DNA of 56,840 nt from an uncultured Gammaproteobacteria bacterium (GTDB taxonomy: Bacteria > Pseudomonadota > Gammaproteobacteria > Arenicellales > JAANXG01). The notes below the pieces were generated by a model. The model was given only the letters and a program-made list of their open reading frames with translations, did not search any database and was not told the DNA's origin. Numbering within the stretch: position 1 is the first letter of the stretch; each line of letters starts with the position of its first letter. Below are positions 34,268 through 44,692 of this stretch, in pieces. The stretch is from positions 1 through 56,840 of the forward strand of contig CAMYKW010000058.1 of assembly GCA_947259175.1 (NCBI GenBank), written 5' to 3'. The translations under genes and the position numbers were made by a program.

Positions 34268-34294
34268 TCCTGCCTGAATGTCAGCCGGCGGAAC

Positions 34295-34391
34295 AAGACC
34301 GCATTTCTCACCAGGCGCCCAGCGACTATTCCTGGCACGCACCGGGATGACTCGTGACGTCAATTCTATGAAGAGACAGCTTGAGTTCCTA
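34295..34391 (+). repeat. Truncated copy of the CTAG-bounded repeat
   Basis: GACCGCATTTCTCACCAGG at about 34297-34315 matches the left end of the elements at 35776 and 40712. The following bases through GGATGACTCGTGACGTCAAT and TCTATGAAGAGACAGCTT match the 40712 copy closely. No right terminal repeat is visible. The homologous part ends just inside the next coding sequence and includes its ATG. Confidence 0.75.
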
Positions 34392-34991
34392 TGGTCATGC
34401 ATATCCTGCCGCGCGTCGCCCCGGTCTGCAAGAGCTTGTATTTTCGCCGGCATTCTTTGTGTTCCCCCGGCGCCGCTGTCGGCGGCGAACATCATCGGCG
34501 CCTGGGTGCGCTATAGCCAACCCGCCTATTCCGTCTCTTTTGACGTTGTGCTCAAGGCTAGCCACGACCGCGTACGGCAACTAGTCACCGATTACGAAAA
34601 TCTGCGGGAGCTGTCGCCCACGGTGATTCTCAGCACCGTTGTCAGTTCCAATCCGGGCGGCGGGTCCCGCGTCAAGCTCGTATTGCGACCGTGTTTTTTG
34701 ATCGTGTTCTGTAAGCGTATTACCAAGGTGACTGATACGTCGATTTCAGACAACGGTGATGTAATACATGTAACCGTACCGGCGCTCAGCGATTTTCACC
34801 AAGCACGTGAGGAACTCTCGATTACGGCGGATGCGTCGGATGCAAAGCGAACACGGCTTCGTTACCGCGCACATTTAGTGCCGAAGTTCCGCACGCCGCC
34901 GATTATCGGCCCATGGTTTCTCCGGCGGCAGATCATTAAAGAGTTGACAGTGACCGCTCGCCGGGTGGAAAGTCTGGCGCAACCCATGTAA
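34369..34991 (+). CDS. SRPBCC-family exported protein with repeat-derived N-terminus
   Basis: 207 residues from ATG 34369 (the frame is open from 34278). After a hydrophobic segment ACIFAGILCVPPAPLSA, the rest looks like a START/SRPBCC lipid-binding fold of the polyketide-cyclase type: VSFDVVLKASHDRVRQLVTDYENLREL and VPKFRTPPIIGPWFLRRQI. Function unknown. The ATG and the codons for MKRQLEFL lie inside a dispersed repeat (34295-34391), so the present start appears to come from the repeat. Confidence 0.7.
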
Positions 34992-35010: not shown

Positions 35011-35661
35011 ATGAAACCTGAATTGCGTGTCACCGTGTTCTCCGATTACATCTGTCCCTTCTGCTACATCGGACATCTGCGAGTGGCCAAGCTTCGCGAC
35101 AGTTATAATGTCAAAATCAACTGGCGTTTTCTGGAAATACATCCGGACAACCCGCCCGAGGGACGACCTTTGTCCGAACTCGGATATCCCCCGCGCCAGT
35201 GGCAGCGGATGATGGAGAATCTGGAAAAGATGGCCGCCGAGGAGGGCGTAGAATTGGCGCAACGTACGTTCACCACCAACTCTCATAAGGCGTTGTTATT
35301 GGCCGAAGCCGGGAAATCTGCGGGTGTGCAGACGTTTAACCGGTTGAACGATGATTTGTTTAGCGCCTACTTTCTACATCAGCAGAACCTCGGAGACCCC
35401 GAGGTGTTGCGGGCCATCGCCAGGCGCGCGGGTGTGGGGGACGAGGTAGTCGAGCAGGCATGGAGCGATCCTCGCTACGAACGGGAGTTGCAGGCCAACC
35501 TGCGTGAGGCCTCGCGACTGGGGATCAACGGTACGCCGGCTTTCATTATCGGGCGCCGTATCGCCGCCGGTGCAGTGCCGGTATCGACCCTGCGGGACAT
35601 GGCTGGTATCGCCGATATTCAACTCAAGCCTTCCGCGACCGCTGGCGCCAATCCGGGTTGA
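35011..35661 (+). CDS. DsbA-family oxidoreductase, FrnE-like
   Basis: 216 residues with no signal peptide. The active-site CPFC is at residues 15-18 (FSDYICPFC) and the cis-Pro is in GINGTPAFII near 170-179. The 2-hydroxychromene isomerase/FrnE branch of DsbA-like proteins is cytoplasmic and handles thiol oxidation or isomerisation. It lies 19 bp after the SRPBCC gene. Substrate unknown. Confidence 0.88.
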   Translation: MKPELRVTVFSDYICPFCYIGHLRVAKLRDSYNVKINWRFLEIHPDNPPEGRPLSELGYPPRQWQRMMENLEKMAAEEGVELAQRTFTTNSHKALLLAEAGKSAGVQTFNRLNDDLFSAYFLHQQNLGDPEVLRAIARRAGVGDEVVEQAWSDPRYERELQANLREASRLGINGTPAFIIGRRIAAGAVPVSTLRDMAGIADIQLKPSATAGANPG

Positions 35662-35670
35662 CTTGAGTCC

Positions 35671-35686
35671 AATGATTATTATCATT
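35671..35686. promoter_or_regulatory. Fur-like inverted repeat overlapping a weak promoter
   Basis: AATGATTATTATCATT contains the inverted repeat AATGAT-N4-ATCATT, reminiscent of a Fur box. TTGACT at 35658-35663 and TATCAT at 35680-35685 could form a promoter with a 16-nt spacer. A MITE-like element (35776-36023) now lies between this site and the ABC operon at 36024. Match by eye only. Confidence 0.3.
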
Positions 35687-35775
35687 AGGTCCCGCTCGGG
35701 AACCAATCGCGGGCGCTGATCCCCGCGACCTGGTTTGTCGCCGCTCGTATGTGATCGTTTGGACGTATGCAGTAA

Positions 35776-36023
35776 CTAGCCCGAATTTCTCACCAGGCGG
35801 CGCCAGGCTGACAATTGACGTTGATGTATAAGGCGATGTGCAGAATCAATGAGATACACTGTGTAAAGACAGTCACGCCTATCCCGGCCCTGGCTGGTCC
35901 TCGCACATCTGCGCATGGCCTTCACTCGACCCATAGCTCGCTATGGGTCTCGCTCCAGGCGCCGCGCGCAGCCGCACGAGTCCTGCGCCAGCATCCGGGA
36001 TCCTGGTGAGAAATTCGGACTAG
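35776..36023. mobile_element. MITE-like element, 248 bp, CTAG-bounded
   Basis: The left end CTAGCCCGAATTTCTCACC continues AGG (35776-35797). It is mirrored by the right end (36002-36023), which reads CCTGGTGAG and ends CGGACTAG, a 22-bp terminal inverted repeat with one mismatch. It encodes no protein. An internal hairpin GACCCATAG/CTATGGGTC is near 35930-35951. The right ~90 bp resembles the element at 40712. The element ends directly before the ATG of the ABC ATPase gene. Confidence 0.8.
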
Positions 36024-36965
36024 ATGGCCGCGCTTGTAGAAATAAACCACCTGACTAAACGATTTGCCTTCATCACCGCCGTGGACGATATCTCGTTTGG
36101 CGTCGACAAAGGTGAAGTATTGGGTTTTCTCGGCCCCAACGGCGCGGGTAAATCGACGACGATGAAGATGATCACCGGATTCCTGGCCCCGGATGGCGGT
36201 GATGTCCGCATAGGCGGTGTGGATATCGGCGCCCAGTCGGTGGCGGTTAAACGCCGCATCGGCTACCTCCCGGAGGGTGCGCCGTTATATCCGGACATGA
36301 CGCCGGCGGCGTTTTTAGGTTTTGTCGGCGCTGTGCGCGGCTTCAGGGGCGAGGAACTGCGCAAACGCATTCGCGATACCGTCGAGAAAGTGCAACTGGC
36401 GTCGGTACTCGAGCAACCGATCGGGACGCTGTCCAAGGGATTTAAACGCCGCGTGGGTATAGCCCAAGCGATTCTTCACGATCCTGAGGTGTTGATTCTA
36501 GACGAGCCGACGGACGGACTGGATCCAAATCAAAAACACGAAGTGCGAGCCTTGATCCGCAACATGTCGAAAGACAAAGCCATCATCCTGTCCACACACA
36601 TCCTGGAGGAAGTCGATGCCGTGTGCAACCGGGTCATCATCGTTGCGGACGGCAAGATCGTCGCCGACGGCACGCCGTCACAATTGGAAGCCAGATCCCC
36701 GCGTCACAATGCGGTAGCTCTGATGGTCAGCGACGCCGATCAAGGCGATGTTCGACAGCAGCTCGAACGCTTGCAGGGCGTGGCCTCGGTTGAGTGCGTT
36801 GGGCGGGACGGCGGGGTTCATTGCACCGTATATCCCACCAGCGGCAACTCCATACTGGCTGCGGTCAGCGGGGTCGCCAGGGAACGGGCATGGACGGTGG
36901 AAGAACTTCACGTCCAGCGGGGCCGCCTGGACGACGTATTCAGAGCAATTACCGCAAAAGGTTGA
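36024..36965 (+). CDS. ABC transporter ATPase, GldA-like
   Basis: 313 residues. Walker A GPNGAGKST, signature LSKGFKRRVGIAQA (LSKG form typical of GldA-like exporters), Walker B VLILDEPTDGLD and H-loop ILSTHILEE are present, followed by a C-terminal regulatory extension of ~90 residues. It pairs with the permease at 36980. The only possible ribosome site, GGTGAG at 36005-36010, lies within the terminal repeat of the preceding mobile element, at a long 13-nt spacing. Cargo unknown. Confidence 0.92.
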   Translation: MAALVEINHLTKRFAFITAVDDISFGVDKGEVLGFLGPNGAGKSTTMKMITGFLAPDGGDVRIGGVDIGAQSVAVKRRIGYLPEGAPLYPDMTPAAFLGFVGAVRGFRGEELRKRIRDTVEKVQLASVLEQPIGTLSKGFKRRVGIAQAILHDPEVLILDEPTDGLDPNQKHEVRALIRNMSKDKAIILSTHILEEVDAVCNRVIIVADGKIVADGTPSQLEARSPRHNAVALMVSDADQGDVRQQLERLQGVASVECVGRDGGVHCTVYPTSGNSILAAVSGVARERAWTVEELHVQRGRLDDVFRAITAKG

Positions 36966-36979
36966 CCGCGAGAAACACG

Positions 36980-37714
36980 ATGTCGAGTGTGTGGATAATC
37001 GCCAAGCGGGAGTTGTCGGGATATTTCACGACGCCCATCGCCTATGTATTTATCGTGATTTTTCTTTTCTTGAACGGCGTGTTCACCTTCTATTTGGGAA
37101 ACTTTTTCGAGCGCGGCCAGGCGGACCTGGTCACCTTTTTCGGTTTTCATCCGTGGCTGTACCTGGCGCTGATCCCCGCGTTGACGATGCGTTTGTGGGC
37201 CGAGGAACGCAAAGCCGGCACCATCGAGCTGCTGTTGACATTGCCTGTGTCGATGCTCGAAGCAGTGTTGGGTAAATTTATTGCTACGTGGATCTTTGCG
37301 GCGATCGCCCTGGCGATGACCTTTCCCATGTGGTTGACGGTCAATTACCTGGGTGATCCCGACAACGGCATCATTTTGGCGAGCTATATGGGCAGTTTAC
37401 TCATGGCCGGGGCCTATATCGCCATTGGATCGTGCATATCCGCTTTGACTAAAAACCAGGTTATTGCGTTTGTGGTTACCGTGGTGGTGTGCCTTATGTT
37501 CCTGTTGAGTGGTTTTCCATTGGTGTTGGATTTCTTCAGCGGCTGGACTCCGGAAATCGTGCTGCGGGCGATCAGCGGAATGAGCTTTCTCGCTCATTTC
37601 GATGACATCAGTAAGGGGATTATTGAATTGCGTGACATGGTGTACTTCCTGTCTCTGATTGTTTTCTGGTTGTTCGTGAACTCCGTTCTGATCGAAGTCA
37701 AGAAGGCGGACTGA
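36980..37714 (+). CDS. ABC transporter permease, GldF-like
   Basis: 244 residues with about six transmembrane helices. The N-terminus IAKRELSGYFTTPIAYVFI and the block WAEERKAGTIELLLTLPVS are typical of ABC-2 permeases of the GldF/NosY type. It starts 14 bp after the ATPase gene and ends 8 bp before the GldG-like gene. Confidence 0.92.
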   Translation: MSSVWIIAKRELSGYFTTPIAYVFIVIFLFLNGVFTFYLGNFFERGQADLVTFFGFHPWLYLALIPALTMRLWAEERKAGTIELLLTLPVSMLEAVLGKFIATWIFAAIALAMTFPMWLTVNYLGDPDNGIILASYMGSLLMAGAYIAIGSCISALTKNQVIAFVVTVVVCLMFLLSGFPLVLDFFSGWTPEIVLRAISGMSFLAHFDDISKGIIELRDMVYFLSLIVFWLFVNSVLIEVKKAD

Positions 37715-37722
37715 GGGTAACG

Positions 37723-39669
37723 ATGTCGTCGAACAAGAAATTCCTCACCATTACCAGTCTGGTGGTCGCGGTCGCGCTGTTATTGGCCGTAAACATCCTG
37801 AGTAATGTCACGTTCACGTCGACGCGGCTTGATCTGACGGCGGCGAAACTATTCACCCTGACGGAGGGCACTGCCAATATTCTCGGCAAACTTGACGAGC
37901 CGATTACACTGCGGTTTTTTCTTTCGCAGCGGGAGGCGACTCGTTTGCCCGGGATCAATAGTTATGCGCAGCGGGTTAAGGAGTTATTGGAAGAGTACCA
38001 ACGGCTCGCCGGTGGAAAGATCCGCCTGCAGATAATAGATCCCGAGCCTTTTTCCGAGCAGGAAGACCGCGCCGTTGGGTACGGATTGCGCGGTGTCGGT
38101 TTGGAAGGCGATGGGGTCTTTTATTTTGGCCTGGTGGGAACCAACGCTGTTGACGATCAGGAGGTCATCCCGTTCTTCTCACCGAACCGCGAGGAGTTCC
38201 TCGAGCACGACATCACCAAGCTCGTCCATCAGCTGACCGCTGCGAAGCGACGGATCGTCGGCGTCATGAGCACGCTGCCCATCGACGGCGGCATGGGGAT
38301 GCCCGGTCGCGGGATGGCGGAACCCTGGGCGGTGATGGAACAGGTGCGTCAATTGTTTGAAGTACGCACGGTGGCCGCGGACGCGACATCGATCCCGGAC
38401 GACATCGATGTGTTGATGATCGTGCATCCGAAAGACCTTTCCGACCGAACGCTGTATGCAATCGACCAGTTTCTATTGACCAAAGGTCGGGCATTGATCT
38501 TCGTTGATCCCAATTCCGAGTCTGATCAGCCCGGCGCTATGCCGATGTTGGGGGGCACACCCGGCGGATCGGACCTGCCCAAAGTATTTGCGTCATTGGG
38601 TATTGACTTGGTCGACGGCAAGGTGGCCGGTGATTTACGCGTCGCCGAACGGGTCCGCTATGCCGACCAGGGGCGTACCGCGGTGACCGAATACCCGGTG
38701 TGGATGAACCTGCAACCCGACCAGTTCAATGCCGACGACATCATCACCGCCGAACTGGGAAACCTGATGTTCGCGACCTCCGGCATATTGGAGATCAATG
38801 ATGCCGCACAGACCAAGGTGGAACCGCTGGTGGAGACGACTCCCGATGCGATGCAGATTGACGCCGCACAACTGCGTCTTCTTAATGATCCCACGATGCT
38901 GCTGCGCCAATTCCGGCCGGGAGGAAAGAAACTGATCCTGGCGGCGCGGGTATCCGGCCCGATGAAGAGCGCTTTTCCGGACGGCAGACCGGTCGCAGAA
39001 TCGTCCACCGACCAAAGCGACGCTGCTGCGGAGCAAAAAGGTGATGCCAAGAAAGATGATGTTTCCGAGGCGCCGCATCGCGCGGAGTCATCGCAGGCCG
39101 TGAACCTGATTGTGGTTGCCGACACCGACCTGCTCAATGACCGGTTTTGGGTGCGGGTACAGAATTTCCTTGGCAGCCGGATTCTGATTCCATCCGCTGC
39201 TAACGGTAATTTTGTAGTCAATGCGCTGGAGAGCTTGACCGGAAGCAACGATCTGATCAGCGTCCGCAGCCGCGGCCGATTTACGCGTCCTTTTACCAAG
39301 GTTACGGACATTCAACAGCACGCGGAACTGCGATACCGACAAAAGGAGCAGGAGTTGCTGACGCGCTTGCGCGAGACGGAGAACAAACTGCTGGAACTGG
39401 AGGATCGGAAACAGGGCGATGAGGCCGTTATCCTGAGTCAGGAACAACAAACAGAAATCGAAAAATTCCGTTTGGAGAAAATTCGCATCCGTAAGGATCT
39501 CCGCACCGTACGCCATCAGTTACACAAGGATATCGAAGGTCTGGCCTCGTGGATGAAGTTCGTCAATATCGGTTTGATGCCGATATTGATAGGTGCCGGG
39601 GGTATTTTTATTGCCTTACAGCGGGCGCGGCGCCGTCAGGTGAGCCAGCGTCGGAAGCAGCCGTCATGA
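37723..39669 (+). CDS. GldG-like ABC-associated membrane protein
   Basis: 648 residues: an N-terminal transmembrane helix (about 7-28), a long extracytoplasmic part of the GldG/IFT52-like type (DLTAAKLFTLTEGT, then VMSTLPIDGG and DVLMIVHPKDLSD), a charged low-complexity patch rich in Asp/Lys/Glu near 420-450, a coiled coil (about 530-605), and a C-terminal helix (about 608-630) ending in a basic tail. It is the auxiliary subunit of ABC-2 systems like GldFG. Its stop overlaps the next ATG (ATGA). Confidence 0.87.
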   Translation: MSSNKKFLTITSLVVAVALLLAVNILSNVTFTSTRLDLTAAKLFTLTEGTANILGKLDEPITLRFFLSQREATRLPGINSYAQRVKELLEEYQRLAGGKIRLQIIDPEPFSEQEDRAVGYGLRGVGLEGDGVFYFGLVGTNAVDDQEVIPFFSPNREEFLEHDITKLVHQLTAAKRRIVGVMSTLPIDGGMGMPGRGMAEPWAVMEQVRQLFEVRTVAADATSIPDDIDVLMIVHPKDLSDRTLYAIDQFLLTKGRALIFVDPNSESDQPGAMPMLGGTPGGSDLPKVFASLGIDLVDGKVAGDLRVAERVRYADQGRTAVTEYPVWMNLQPDQFNADDIITAELGNLMFATSGILEINDAAQTKVEPLVETTPDAMQIDAAQLRLLNDPTMLLRQFRPGGKKLILAARVSGPMKSAFPDGRPVAESSTDQSDAAAEQKGDAKKDDVSEAPHRAESSQAVNLIVVADTDLLNDRFWVRVQNFLGSRILIPSAANGNFVVNALESLTGSNDLISVRSRGRFTRPFTKVTDIQQHAELRYRQKEQELLTRLRETENKLLELEDRKQGDEAVILSQEQQTEIEKFRLEKIRIRKDLRTVRHQLHKDIEGLASWMKFVNIGLMPILIGAGGIFIALQRARRRQVSQRRKQPS

Positions 39670-40715
39670 TCAACGCGAAGCTGCTGGCCGTTCTCTCGGT
39701 CGCGGCGGTATTGGCGTCGGCCGGGGTGTATTTCAGTGAGCGTAGTCCGCAGCATGCCGCGGATGCGGTGGTCGCGCATTTCCCCTCGCTCCTGGACCAG
39801 GCCAACCAGGTTGCCAAGGCGCAGATTGAGACGGGCGACGCCGCGATCACCTTGACCCGGGGCGATTCGCAATGGACGGTTGAGCAAAAAAACGATTATC
39901 CGGCGTCGCTGGATCAAGTCAGGGCCCTTGTTCTAGGGCTGGCCGAGTTGCAGCGGATAGAGCCCAAGACCAATAATCCGCAGTTGCACGCCAAACTCGG
40001 TCTGGCGGACCGTGGACCCCAATCCGAATCGATGCTGATTCGTCTCAAGGATCAGGCTGATCGCGAAATACTCGCCGTGATGATTGGTAAACAAAAGCCC
40101 GCCCGCATGGGTGGCAACCGCAGCCGGTACAACCAGTATTATGTTCGCGCACCCACCGAGACACAGGTGTGGTTGACAGAGGGCAGGTTGCCGTCGGGAC
40201 GCGACGCTGCGGACTGGATCGATAAGCAGTTCGTGAGATTGAGAATCGACGAGATTCAATCGGTGGAGGTTGTGCATACCGACGGGGAGCGGCTGCAAAT
40301 ACGACGGGACGACCGCACCGATAACGAATTTGTGCTTTCCGGGCTATCCGAGGGAGAGGAGGTCGAATCCGCATACGCGGTCAATAACGTTCCGCGTACG
40401 CTACAGTCGTTGATGGCCGATGATGTCGTACCGATCGGTGAGGTTCAGCTCGGCGCTGAAGCGACTCGAGTGCGGGTCGGCACTTTTGCAGGCGCGCGGA
40501 TCGATATCGCGTTCTTCAAACAGAACGAAAAAATCTACGCACGGGTCAGCGGAGGGAATGCGGACGACCCGGATGATTCACCACCGAACACGGAGTCGGC
40601 CGATGTTCCGCGCGCCCTTTGGCAGCAATGGGTGTATGTGATCCCGGAGCACCAGTATGACGCGGTCTCGGTTAAGAAGACTGACCTGATCAAGGCGGGC
40701 GATCCGAAGTCCTAG
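39666..40715 (+). CDS. DUF4340-family protein
   Basis: 349 residues from ATG 39666, coupled to the GldG-like gene by a 4-bp overlap. An N-terminal transmembrane or signal anchor (AKLLAVLSVAAVLASAGVY) precedes a domain with repeated beta segments (ITLTRGDSQWTVEQKNDYPA, and VEVVHTDGERLQIRRD). DUF4340 proteins commonly follow GldA/F/G-like genes and are of unknown function. The TAG stop is part of the CTAG that opens the repeat element at 40712. Confidence 0.85.
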   Translation: MINAKLLAVLSVAAVLASAGVYFSERSPQHAADAVVAHFPSLLDQANQVAKAQIETGDAAITLTRGDSQWTVEQKNDYPASLDQVRALVLGLAELQRIEPKTNNPQLHAKLGLADRGPQSESMLIRLKDQADREILAVMIGKQKPARMGGNRSRYNQYYVRAPTETQVWLTEGRLPSGRDAADWIDKQFVRLRIDEIQSVEVVHTDGERLQIRRDDRTDNEFVLSGLSEGEEVESAYAVNNVPRTLQSLMADDVVPIGEVQLGAEATRVRVGTFAGARIDIAFFKQNEKIYARVSGGNADDPDDSPPNTESADVPRALWQQWVYVIPEHQYDAVSVKKTDLIKAGDPKS

Positions 40716-40905
40716 CCCGCATTTCTCAGCAGGCGCCCAGCTACTATTCCTGGCACCCCCCGGGATGACTCGTGACGTCAATTCTATGAAGAGACAGCTT
40801 AATTTCCTGATGTGTAGCTACGGCTATGGGTTTCGTTCCAGCGCGGCGTCCAGTCGCCCGGTCTCTTCGCCAGCATCCGGGATCCTGGTGAGAACTGCGG
40901 GCTAG
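40712..40905. mobile_element. MITE-like element, 194 bp, CTAG-bounded
   Basis: The left end (40712-40733) starts CTAGCCCGCATTTCTCAGC and the right end (40884-40905) is CCTGGTGAGAAC then TGCGGGCTAG, a 22-bp inverted repeat with two mismatches. The left interior (GGGATGACTCGTGACGTCAA) matches the copy at 34295 and resembles the tandem array at 43510. The right ~90 bp matches the element at 35776. It contributes the stop codon of the upstream gene and lies upstream of ilvD. Confidence 0.82.
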
Positions 40906-40977
40906 CTGGCAGGTTTGTGCGTCACGGCGAACGGGCCAACGGTCAACCAAGCCGTGTTGGAGCTTTTTACGCTTGTT

Positions 40978-41007
40978 TTGCTAACGGTGGGCGGTATTGC
41001 CTACAAT
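40978..41007 (+). promoter_or_regulatory. Probable sigma70 promoter for ilvD
   Basis: TTGCTA (40978-40983), an 18-nt spacer and TACAAT (41002-41007) lie 29 nt before the ilvD start. The transcript would begin near 41014. Seen by eye. Confidence 0.45.
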
Positions 41008-41036
41008 GCGGCATTTCCTCTGGTACTGATTGACTC

Positions 41037-42713
41037 ATGGCTAAACTAAATCGCTACAGTTCCCGCGTGACGCAGCCGAAATCGCAAGGTGCGTCTCAGG
41101 CTATGTTGTATGGGGCCGGATTGTCCGAAGACGACATGTCTAAAGCCGAGGTCGGTATCGCCAGCGTGTGGTGGGAAGGGAATACCTGCAACATGCATTT
41201 GAACGATCTTGCTTCCCACGTGCGCGGCGGCGTAAACGACGCCGGATTGGTGGGCATGCGCTTTAATACCGTCGGCGTAAGCGACGGTATCGCGATGGGC
41301 ACCGACGGCATGAGCTTTTCATTGCAATCCCGTGATTTGATTGCCGATTCAATCGAGACCGTGATGGCGGCGCAGTGGTACGACGCGAATATCTCAATTC
41401 CCGGTTGCGACAAGAATATGCCCGGTTGTTTGATGGCCATGGGTCGGCTGAATCGACCTTCGTTGATGATCTACGGCGGTACGATTAAACCCGGTCATTG
41501 GCAAGGGAAGGTCTTGGATGTGATATCGGCGTTCCAAAGCTACGGGGAGTATCTCGCCGATACTATCGATGACGATCAGCGTAAGGAGATCATCAAGCAT
41601 TCGTGCCCGGGACCAGGGGCATGTGGCGGCATGTATACCGCGAACACCATGGCCAGCGCGATCGAGGCGATGGGCATGTCGCTCCCCTACAGTTCATCGA
41701 CGCCGGCTGTGGATCCGGGAAAGATCAAGGAGTGCCACGCGGCGGGACAAGCGATACGCAAATTGTTGGAGCGGGACATCAAGCCTCGCGATATCATGAC
41801 GCGAGAGGCGTTTGAAAATGCGATGGCGGTGGTTACGGTGTTGGGCGGGTCCACCAATGCGGTGCTTCATTTGATCGCAATTGCGCGATCGGTCGGCGTG
41901 ACGCTCAGCGTCGACGATTTCCAGTCGGTCAGTGACCGGGTCCCGTTTCTCGCCGACCTCAAGCCGAGCGGGCGTTATGTAATGGAGGACCTGCATGACA
42001 TCGGCGGGACACCCGCTTTGATGAAATTTCTGCTGGAAGAAGGGTTGATCGAAGGCGATTGTATGACGGTGACTGGAAATACCGTGCGGGACAATCTTGC
42101 GCAGGTGTCCGGTCTGGCGCAAGGGCAGAAAGTTATTCGACCCCTCAGCAATCCGATACATCACCGCGGGCACATCCAGATACTGAAAGGCAACCTCGCA
42201 CCGGGCGGGGCGGTGGCGAAGATTACCGGCAAGGAGGGGGAGCGCTTCACCGGACCGGCGCGAATTTTCGATTCCGAGGAAGATATGCTCCATGCCCTGG
42301 AGCGCAGCGAGATTCAATCGGGTGACGTAATCGTCATTCGTTACGAGGGGCCCAAAGGCGGGCCTGGCATGCCGGAGATGCTTACCCCCACGTCCGCGAT
42401 CATCGGAGCCGGCTTGGGCGATAAGGTCGCGTTAATTACCGACGGCCGATTCTCCGGCGGTTCCCACGGGTTTATCATCGGCCACGTGGTGCCCGAGGCC
42501 CAGGAAGGCGGTGCTATCGCCCTGATTCGCGACGGCGATATCATAAAAATCGATGCCGGTAACAATACGCTTGATGTTGATTTGTCGGAATCCGAGCTGA
42601 CCAAGCGCAAAAAAGACTGGAAGATGCCTCCGTTTAAGGTGACGCGCGGCACACTTTACAAATATATTAAGACCGTCAAAGATGCGAGCCTGGGATGTGT
42701 TACCGATGAATGA
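41037..42713 (+). CDS. ilvD: Dihydroxy-acid dehydratase
   Basis: 558 residues. Dehydrates dihydroxy acids in isoleucine, valine and CoA-precursor synthesis, in the cytoplasm. Iron-sulfur Cys residues are in NTCNMH (near 50), [11 protein letters not shown] (near 118-128) and [12 protein letters not shown] (near 194-205). [18 protein letters not shown] near the C-terminus is the IlvD signature. It stands alone, not with other ilv genes. The liv branched-chain amino-acid uptake operon is 5 kb downstream, a possible functional pairing. Confidence 0.97.
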
Positions 42714-42796
42714 ATGCGATAGGTATCGGCCCGGATCATCATTCTTGCGCATCGCAAGAATCCTTCAATTATCCTGAGTTTGTTGGGAATCCATTA

Positions 42797-43486
42797 GTGA
42801 CCGTCTCGAAACGCCATTTTTTCTTTGTTGTTGTATCCCTGCTGATGTTGGATCCGGTATTGGCCGAAACCCGGTTTGTAACCGATCAAGTCAGAATCAC
42901 GTTGCGCTCCGGTGAGAGCACCGAGCACAAAGTTTTGCAGATGTTGCCGAGTGGTGCGCCCCTTGAGGTGCTCGGCAGCAACGATAACACCGGGTATTCC
43001 CACGTGCGTACCCAAGCCGGCGACACGGGATACGTGTTGACTCGCTTGTTGATCGAAACTCCAAGTGCGAGACAACGCCTGGCGGCGGCCGAGAAACGGC
43101 TGACTGAGCTGCAGGAGGAACCCGAGAAACTGGCCAGTAAATTGCTTACGTTGCAGACTGAGTATGAAGATTTAAAAGACAATTATGCGAAAGCCGAGAA
43201 CGACAACCAGAACCTGAGAACTCAATTGGAGGAGATCCGGTCCGCGACGAGAAATGCGGTCAGCATCGCCGATGAAAGAAACACGCTGCGTAAAAAGGTG
43301 GCCGCATTGAACGGAGAGGTCGGGGAGTTGAAATTGGACAATCAGGATCTCCGCAATCAGTCCGAGCGAAAGTGGTTCATGATGGGGGCCGGCGCGATAA
43401 TTGTCGGCATCCTGCTGGGCCTGATCCTGCCGCGTTTGCGCGTCCGCCGCCGCCGAGACAACTGGGGCTCGTTGTCCGGATTCTAG
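42797..43486 (+). CDS. SH3 and membrane-anchor domain protein (TIGR04211/YgiM-like)
   Basis: 229 residues from GTG 42797, chosen because it begins a signal peptide (KRHFFFVVVSLLMLDPVLA). The frame is open to 42710, where it overlaps the ilvD stop. Bacterial SH3 domain: RITLRSGESTEHKVLQMLPS then DTGYVLTRLL. A coiled coil (about 95-195) and one C-terminal helix (GAGAIIVGILLGLILP) with a basic tail follow. This is the YgiM/TIGR04211 layout. The TAG stop lies in the CTAG that opens the repeat region at 43483. Confidence 0.87.
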   Translation: MTVSKRHFFFVVVSLLMLDPVLAETRFVTDQVRITLRSGESTEHKVLQMLPSGAPLEVLGSNDNTGYSHVRTQAGDTGYVLTRLLIETPSARQRLAAAEKRLTELQEEPEKLASKLLTLQTEYEDLKDNYAKAENDNQNLRTQLEEIRSATRNAVSIADERNTLRKKVAALNGEVGELKLDNQDLRNQSERKWFMMGAGAIIVGILLGLILPRLRVRRRRDNWGSLSGF

Positions 43487-43929
43487 CCCGGAAATTGCGC
43501 CAAGGCGCCCAGCTACTATTTCCGTCCTGCAATGACCTGACTCGCAACGTCAATTCTACGAATAAACGGCGTAAAATCAGCATATTGTCTGCCCAGCTAC
43601 TATTTCCGTCCTGCAATGAATTGACTCGCAACGTCAATTCTACGAATAAACAGCGTAAAATCAGCATATTGTCTGCCCAGCTACTATTTCCGTCCTGCAA
43701 TGAATTGACTCGCAACGTCAATTCTACGAATAAACAGCGTAAGATCAGCATATTGTCTCCAGCTACTATTTCCGTCCTGCAATGAATTGACTCGCAACGT
43801 CAATTCTACGAATAAACAGCGTAAGATCAGCATATTGTCTGCCCGGAAATAGTAGCTGGGCGCCTTGGCGCAAGGTCCCGACGGTGCAGAATCTGGGTTT
43901 TCATGGCCGATTCGGGATTCTTGGACTAG
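43483..43929. mobile_element. CTAG-bounded repeat region related to the MITE-like family
   Basis: It opens with CTAGCCCGGAAATTGCGCC at 43483 and contains the four-unit tandem array. A right end may be GGACTAG at 43923-43929, like the GGACTAG that ends the 35776 element, but the right terminal repeat is degenerate. The array units are clearly related to the left interior of the 40712 element (CAGCTACTATT, GACTCG, then ACGTCAATTCTA). Confidence 0.6.
43495..43873. repeat. Four tandem 84-bp units bounded by a 29-bp inverted repeat
   Basis: Units begin CAGCTACTATTTCCGTCCTG at 43510, 43594, 43678 and 43760. Spacings are 84, 84 and 82 bp; the third unit lacks two bases. Units differ by only a few substitutions (for example AAAATC versus AAGATC). 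The outer 43495-43523 and 43845-43873 are perfect reverse complements of each other (TTGCGCCAAGGCGCC and so on). The unit length is divisible by three, so both strands give repeated peptides, but no start signal supports translation. This is not a CRISPR: units are contiguous with no unique spacers. Confidence 0.9.
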
Positions 43930-43972
43930 AATAAAACCATCATTTATCGCTCATAATAGAAAGGGGGCGAAG

Positions 43973-44692
43973 GTGTTCGTATTAAAAGAGTCATCCCGGG
44001 ATCGCTGGCTGCTCGGTCTGGTCGTGCTCATGAGCGTCGTCGCCAATCTGCCGGAAAGCATGGGCGAATACATCGCCGTCGACAAGAAATGGCTGTTGGT
44101 CGGATTGTTGATTATCGTGGCGGTGTCCCTGGTTCGTTACCTACGCACCGGCTTGATCCTAGTTACCGCGGTTCTGGTCATGGGCGCCAATCTGCCGGCG
44201 GAACTTGCCGAATATTTCAACCTTGATCCTGCGGTCATGTTGTACACGCTGGGGATTATGATCGCGATCCCGCTGGCCAACCGTTATTTCAAATTACCCA
44301 CCGGGCTGGAACCGAAACAAGTGGCGAAAACCGCCTATGGAGCCAAGGCGCTGTTTCATGCAGTGCTCAAAGGCAATGTGCCGGTAGTTCAATCGCTGAT
44401 AGATTCCGGAGTCAATGTAAACGTGCGCACGGTATCCGGAAAGACACCATTGATGGCCTCGGCATTTCGCGGTTACACCGACATCGCGCAATTATTGATA
44501 TCTGCCGGCGCCGATATTCATTCTATGGATCGCGACGGTAGCACCGCCCTGACCGTGGCGCAAAATCACGGCTTCTCGCGGATCGTTGCGTTGCTCAAGA
44601 TCGCCAATGAAAAAGAAAGGGAGAAAGCCAAGGAAGCCCCGCTAGATGTTCGCTCCGTCGGCGGCCCGGCCAAAGCCGTCGCCAACGGTTGA
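43973..44692 (+). CDS. Inner-membrane ankyrin-repeat protein
   Basis: 239 residues from GTG 43973, preceded by AAGGGGG with short spacing. Three hydrophobic segments (about 14-28, 39-55, 60-75, with a fourth near 84-100) are followed by ankyrin repeats: AVLKGNVPVVQSLIDSGVNV, TPLMASAFRGYTDIAQLLIS and STALTVAQNHGFSRIVALLK. The end is charged. Function unknown; ankyrin repeats suggest a cytoplasmic partner. It follows the repeat region and precedes a 500-bp gap. Confidence 0.8.
   Translation: MFVLKESSRDRWLLGLVVLMSVVANLPESMGEYIAVDKKWLLVGLLIIVAVSLVRYLRTGLILVTAVLVMGANLPAELAEYFNLDPAVMLYTLGIMIAIPLANRYFKLPTGLEPKQVAKTAYGAKALFHAVLKGNVPVVQSLIDSGVNVNVRTVSGKTPLMASAFRGYTDIAQLLISAGADIHSMDRDGSTALTVAQNHGFSRIVALLKIANEKEREKAKEAPLDVRSVGGPAKAVANG

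Follow-up and report, generated by a model that had tools for sequence, protein, structure and literature searches.

The window, a stretch of 56,840 nucleotides on contig CAMYKW010000058.1 of an uncultured gammaproteobacterium of the order Arenicellales, belongs to a draft genome of 4.18 Mb in 121 contigs (G000) and carries two short, CTAG-bounded elements at gene borders. Both were recovered where a preliminary description had placed them. The first (35776–36023) has inverted arms of 22 nt (35776–35797/36002–36023, 95% complementary) and the second (40712–40905) has arms of 34 nt (40712–40745/40872–40905, 79% complementary); their right arms share 80% identity over 70 nt. The positions at gene borders given in that description also held: the 35776 copy abuts the ATG (36024) of its 3′ neighbour, an ABC-transporter ATPase gene, the 40712 copy starts at the TAG stop of a DUF4340 gene, and a third element starts at the TAG stop of an SH3_3 gene at 43483. 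The features are listed here, with the evidence for each in brackets.

34294–34391, + strand: truncated copy, consisting of a left repeat (2 mismatches) and module A; a right end was not seen (3′ limit approximate)
35776–35779, unstranded: left target-site duplication CTAG of the 35776 copy (single 4-bp slot in the empty site of relatives)
35780–35797, + strand: left terminal inverted repeat CCCGAATTTCTCACCAGG of the 35776 copy (arm comparison, genome-wide pattern, paired copies)
35879–36003, + strand: right-arm hairpin of the 35776 copy, about 125 nt (fold, covariance model, covariation)
36002–36019, − strand: right terminal inverted repeat of the 35776 copy (arm comparison)
36020–36023, unstranded: right target-site duplication CTAG of the 35776 copy (the ATG at 36024 follows immediately)
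40712–40715, unstranded: left target-site duplication CTAG of the 40712 copy (its TAG is the stop of the DUF4340 gene, which ends at 40715)
40716–40733, + strand: left terminal inverted repeat CCCGCATTTCTCAGCAGG of the 40712 copy (arm comparison, genome-wide pattern)
40737–40822, + strand: module A sequence (CCAGCTACTATT...) in the 40712 copy (63% to the repeat unit at 43483)
40823–40883, + strand: right arm of the 40712 copy, a deletion derivative with the 3′ half only, the 5′ half of the long hairpin being absent (sequence comparison)
40884–40901, − strand: right terminal inverted repeat of the 40712 copy (arm comparison)
40902–40905, unstranded: right target-site duplication CTAG of the 40712 copy (paired-copy listing)
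43483–43879, + strand: cousin element, beginning with CTAG and an inverted repeat of its own, CCCGGAAATTGCGCC; its module A holds four tandem units of 84 bp and is followed by a closing arm and a right end that is degenerate (3′ limit approximate)
43507–43844, + strand: 84-bp tandem array, 4.0 copies, in module A of the cousin (tandem-repeat analysis)

The 43483 element had been taken for a related array; it does start at the SH3_3 stop, but its different inverted repeat makes it a degenerate cousin rather than a copy. A relative matching one of its four 84-bp units (83%) lies at 38794–38904 of contig C2 in the same genome. The truncated copy sits at the 5′ end of an ORF (34278–34991) whose match to Polyketide_cyc2 falls slightly under the cut-off; the true start of this ORF may be the ATG at 34392, or its N-terminus may have been acquired from the element. 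Just past the 40712 element, some tens of bp (40906–40990) have no counterpart in four relatives.

The family extends well beyond the window. Across the genome the left-end pattern (≤3 mismatches) gave 94 matches, with 0 for the reversed control, and the 22-mer end (≤2 mismatches) gave 103, again with 0 for its control. From 88 candidates, 25 rows without YTAR at either end were removed. The remaining 63, flanked by YTAR on one side or both, are counted as insertions, i.e. about 60, 28 of the 63 being seen at one end only, so that some may be two halves of one insertion. The 36 paired distinct copies in this genome span 118–363 bp without a transposase gene and are mosaics of the ends, a left part and a right arm, each of these liable to truncation; the left part consists of module A (CCAGCTACTATT...AATAGTAGCTGG), doubled in some copies, or else of unrelated sequence. 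Beyond this genome the 22-bp end was found in 10/59 relatives (11/60 genomes in all), with 57 matches in G001, 54 in G004, 228 in G008, 136 in G012 and 74 in G025, which belongs to another family. Its spread is patchy, with 0 matches in G010 and G011, congeners of G008.

CTAG itself was presumed to be rare, and in the window it is about ten-fold under-represented (20 observed, 213 expected from base composition). The preliminary description had left it as either a target-site duplication or part of the terminal repeat, and comparison with relatives upholds the former. The empty-site comparison covers the three window sites (35776, 40712 and 43483), all of which lack elements in four syntenic genomes of the same genus (G001, G003, G004 and G005). 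At the first, the window reads AGTAA-CTAG-[240 bp]-CTAG-ATGGCC, G005 reads AGTAA-CAGC-ATGGCC and G004 reads AGTAA-CTGC-ATGACC; the G005 alignment runs to the insertion and picks up again 3 bp later. A single 4-bp slot in the relatives, with two in the window, means that CTAG is the duplication and that the element proper begins CCCG. Relatives show CAGC or CTGC in this slot instead of CTAG, which means that the sequence has altered either in their lineage or in that of the window. Upstream of the site, G001 and G003 each carry additional private sequence, and G004 has a piece resembling the right arm.

Pairing of ends over all genomes gave 60 copies. CTAG/CTAG flanked 34 of them, direct non-palindromic duplications five (CTAA in three, TTAG in two, orientation not standardised) and TTAA/TTAA one; the other members of the 26 lacking CTAG/CTAG were 19 without a direct or inverted match and one with an inverted match only (CTAA/TTAG), suggesting that mutated (aged) ends and ends paired wrongly are common. 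The empty site, together with copies in which CTAA/CTAA is direct and not inverted, rules out that the terminal repeat includes CTAG, which is the 4-bp target-site duplication and not inverted-repeat sequence.

The preliminary description did not recognise the family, and its ends now place it with the IS1380 insertion sequences. A profile search with PF13701 in 27 genomes, this one included, gave matches in 12. In G004, of the same genus as the window, an IS1380 transposase (486-aa open frame) lies between CTAG-CCTGGATTTCTCACCG and CGGTGAGAAATCCAGG-CTAG; transposase scores were 524 bits for Pfam PF13701 and, for the G004 protein against the NCBIfam IS1380 equivalog (NF033539), 403 bits. The right end of an IS1380 element in G006 is CCCGCATTTCTCACC, which matches 15/15 of the MITE consensus end, and one end of a CTAG-flanked IS1380 element in a further Gammaproteobacteria MAG (L215) is CCCGCATTTCTCACCAGG, matching 18/18. 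At least 80 IS1380 loci from named genomes, many from few genomes, were among the matches listed; 67 of the 80 had ends above threshold, though at least four of these picks look wrong (L227, L256, L261 and L262) and seven Nannocystis rows are apparently offset by one base. Identical duplications were found at 46/67 (CTAG 28, CTAA 9, TTAG 7, TTAA 1, CTAT 1), as picked by an end-finder that favoured matching duplications and demanded ends starting CC.

Since IS1380 ends and a YTAR duplication are common to the copies and to full-length elements elsewhere, the copies are very probably non-autonomous miniature transposons (MITEs) of the IS1380 family. The IS5 family also prefers YTAR as a target, and would thus share the 4-bp duplication, but ends identical or nearly so to those of IS1380 elements make MITEs of IS5 type an exceedingly improbable reading.

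A full-length transposon with the same ends, suggested as something to look for, exists as IS1380 elements in other genomes, where alone autonomous copies with TTTCTCACC ends were found; none with MITE ends was found in the 121 contigs of the draft assembly itself. The single PF13701 match there (C24, 466 aa) is an IS1380 element with ends CCCGGATATTGCACGA, unlike those of the MITEs. Concealment of a full-length element at contig breaks found no support, the contig-end copies examined running into MITE sequence. Similarly, G008 has 219–228 end matches and no PF13701 match. Classing the family as mobile at present in this genome (type I in the narrow sense) would require an autonomous partner there; placing its ends does not.

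In the group examined, IS1380 insertion sequences (PF13701; NF033539) share the ends (CCCGCATTTCTCACC) and the YTAR duplication of 4 bp with the MITEs, from which they differ in carrying a transposase gene and in length (about 1.7 kb, against 118–363 bp). IS1247, a member of the IS1380 family, is listed with a 5-bp duplication (PMC3281130). Like bacterial type I MITEs, the elements are short, non-coding and multicopy, with terminal inverted repeats common to MITE and IS family; unlike them, they have a covarying body hairpin that lies beside at least two IS1380 end types. Eukaryotic piggyBac may offer a further parallel, in ends and target alone: its ends likewise begin CCC, and its rare target variants, which according to PMC10813416 include TTAG and CTAA beside the main target TTAA, overlap YTAR. 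The same paper uses IS1380 transposases as an outgroup. The main target here, however, is CTAG (34/60 paired copies), with TTAA/TTAA at only 1/60. No description of an IS1380 MITE appears in the available portions of PMC10813416, PMC4133298, PMC3281130 and PMC3542288, and open-access literature, which does not cover ISfinder, yielded nothing linking IS1380 with CTAG, piggyBac/TTAA, target site or duplication, or miniature elements. A repeat family left unrecognised in the preliminary description is assigned here to IS1380, with a YTAR target backed by empty sites.

Most insertions (35/63) sit elsewhere than at a stop codon. With genes called by a simple hexamer model, 28/63 insertions lay at a gene stop, compared with 14/96 other CTAG sites from 400 kb of the same genome (p = 4e-5). 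The same stop test assigned 49 of those 96 sites to genes and 33 elsewhere, and against the non-genic sites the excess was not significant (28:35 vs 14:33, p 0.16), a result that held for insertions with both ends readable (17:18, p 0.11). Both flanks could be read in 35 insertions: at 17 of these a coding frame terminates in the duplicated stop, and a junction test placed 0 inside a gene. Insertions hence avoid genes, while stops are not clearly preferred among the CTAG sites that remain; the association with stops seen at first survives against all CTAG sites and not against non-genic ones. A transposase that prefers stop codons, in place of CTAG specificity combined with purifying selection, would suit the 28/63 insertions at stops, but is very unlikely given that an equal test on both sets left no significant excess over non-genic CTAG (p 0.16; p 0.11). 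A coding frame's ATG immediately follows the duplication in two copies, that at 35776 and L013.

Insertion had also been thought to recreate stop codons. The 40712 stop lines up with that of the relatives; at 43483 the gene ends at the same codon, as TGA, in relatives without the element. The creation of stop codons by insertion is therefore ruled out at 40712 and unlikely at 43483; the idea stands insofar as the duplication restores a stop at its native place, and falls insofar as no new stop is made. Judged by these alignments, stop codons are re-used, not created.

Such placement is best explained if an IS1380 (DDE) transposase, acting in trans, binds the 15–18 bp ends (CCCGCATTTCTCACC(AGG)), excises the MITE and inserts it at YTAR targets, for the most part CTAG, duplicating these four bases. 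Insertion at a C-TAG stop would leave the gene intact precisely because the target is CTAG; insertions within genes would presumably be purged by selection, so that survivors are expected at stops and between genes. We infer all three of mobilisation in trans, cut-and-paste movement and selection as the cause of placement, a combination that would explain how a CTAG-specific transposon can land harmlessly on stop codons. The arm hairpin might help the element to persist, as an RNA 3′ end or as an ssDNA hairpin; this is its most likely role, but a guess.

The right arm of the 35776 copy folds at −65.2 kcal/mol (z −2.92; 3/200 shuffles as good), and arm hairpins in 37 copies range from −50 to −78 kcal/mol. 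Folding was no better than in shuffles for the left part of the same copy (35780–35900, z −0.95) or for module A (43509–43594, z −0.34; 40716–40824, z 0.18); by eye, stems of module A show matched changes in L011 and changes on the left side only in L014. Folded as a whole, the 248-nt element is very stable (RNA z −7.13, DNA z −5.73). In that structure the terminal repeats pair mutually and the left part pairs with portions of the right arm, which means that the complete 35776 copy does not reach its energy minimum with the full arm hairpin formed. No intrinsic terminator was found within the 35776 copy, the sole terminator-like site in 35660–36100 lying outside it (35707–35728), nor any sigma-70 promoter by consensus; Rfam gave 0 matches (window 35500–44200; six loci).

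REP/BIME, ERIC and Correia-type repeats are intergenic, structured and often near gene ends. The MITEs resemble them in being intergenic and structured and in their frequent gene-end position, and differ in having a clear terminal inverted repeat, a duplication, empty sites and no Rfam match. Retention mainly for a benefit to the host, as REP/BIME-like protectors of transcript 3′ ends, would be in keeping with stable arm hairpins in 37 copies and with 28/63 insertions at stops vs 14/96 CTAG sites. It is an unlikely explanation, however, given that stops are not significantly enriched relative to non-genic CTAG (p 0.16), that the ends occur patchily (this genome and 10/59 relatives, with none in two congeners of G008) and that syntenic relatives lack all three window insertions.

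Evidence that the arm fold is conserved comes from alignment. From 98 arm copies, 71 remained without near-duplicates, 47 were aligned (those set aside being 23 whose length differed and one with an unverified match) and 46, from nine genomes, were kept in alignment A3 after removal of one wrong row. On A3, RNAalifold called 21 pairs, 9 of them changed on both sides; on an initial, badly trimmed alignment of 85 copies, before A3 was built, it had called almost no structure. A 37-pair structure, obtained by extending the 21 pairs by hand on the same sequences and so favoured by them, showed compensated changes in 14 pairs and 118 cells, compared with means of 9.7 pairs and 40 cells in shuffles, 9–19 compensated cells when partners were slid along (a control with the equal bias), and means of 6 pairs and 20 cells (maxima 11 and 50) in 200 runs of a FastTree-based simulation of independent columns. 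Parsimony counted 23 changes between Watson-Crick classes on this structure. Other measures were unremarkable: 90.1% of 1699 cells pair, not above the highest simulation (90.2), and 95/500 shuffles had as many further pair types. The covariance model matches C58:35879–36003 at E 6.7e-29, the 35776 copy itself being among the sequences from which the model was built. One subgroup of arms (L353, L372 and others, from G005 and G001) carries an insert of ~23 nt in one strand of a stem.

Structural selection on the body hairpin is plausible, and the same pattern can be yielded by palindrome correction. Long imperfect palindromes are known substrates for template switching, by which one arm of a quasi-palindrome is corrected from the other, so that covariation would be mutational, requiring neither selection nor function. 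Adjacent pairs do change jointly (columns 23 and 24, UA to AU and CG to GC), as such correction would produce. On the other hand, mismatches persist (pair 22-108 is unpaired in 25/46 copies and pair 34-96 in 22/46), some unpaired columns are invariant, and differences in the terminal repeats within one copy are mostly unmatched at the other end, with one matched in the 35776 copy. Correction is thus a serious contender, although one that we would not expect to prevail.

The arm also occurs where the 22-bp end does not. When up to 32 candidates per genome were scored with the covariance model, the arm was found in at least 14/109 genomes of the order, this one included (E ≤ 1e-5), with copies in two genera of another family (at least 15 in G083, at least 2 in G082 and at least 1 in G053). 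G011 has at least 17 arm copies, yet no match to the 22-bp end. Beside 129 distinct arm loci, which are not a random sample, the right end was TTTCTCACC in 64, TATTGCACC in 40, TATTTCACC in 4, TTGCTCACC in 3 and unclassifiable in 18; each was assigned to the closest type with two mismatches allowed, which makes the small classes uncertain. In G007, most copies inspected had the second type (TATTGCACC) at both ends, close to the ends of the IS1380 element in the window's own genome (CCCGGATATTGCACGA).

The predicted arm hairpin, then, occurs beside at least two IS1380 end types, and the same arm beside differing ends indicates that the body stays while the ends change. Our tentative reading, to which we give slightly less than an even chance, is that the family's true conserved unit is its right arm, a structured nucleic acid under selection, whether as an RNA or as an ssDNA hairpin. 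Compensatory changes would maintain its fold among species, among genera and between at least two bacterial families within the order, and it would have changed carrier by swapping terminal repeats between IS1380 subgroups (TTTCTCACC, TATTGCACC and possibly others). If true, the arm would be a parasite or passenger with a structure of its own, carried by any IS1380 transposase that happens to be present. A covarying hairpin beside different ends raises the question of whether the body of a MITE can be structurally selected independently of the transposase used.

Two arm loci of G083 (L395 and L408), from a family other than that of the window, have the arm hairpin next to CCCGGATATTTCACC, a right end that may represent a third type.
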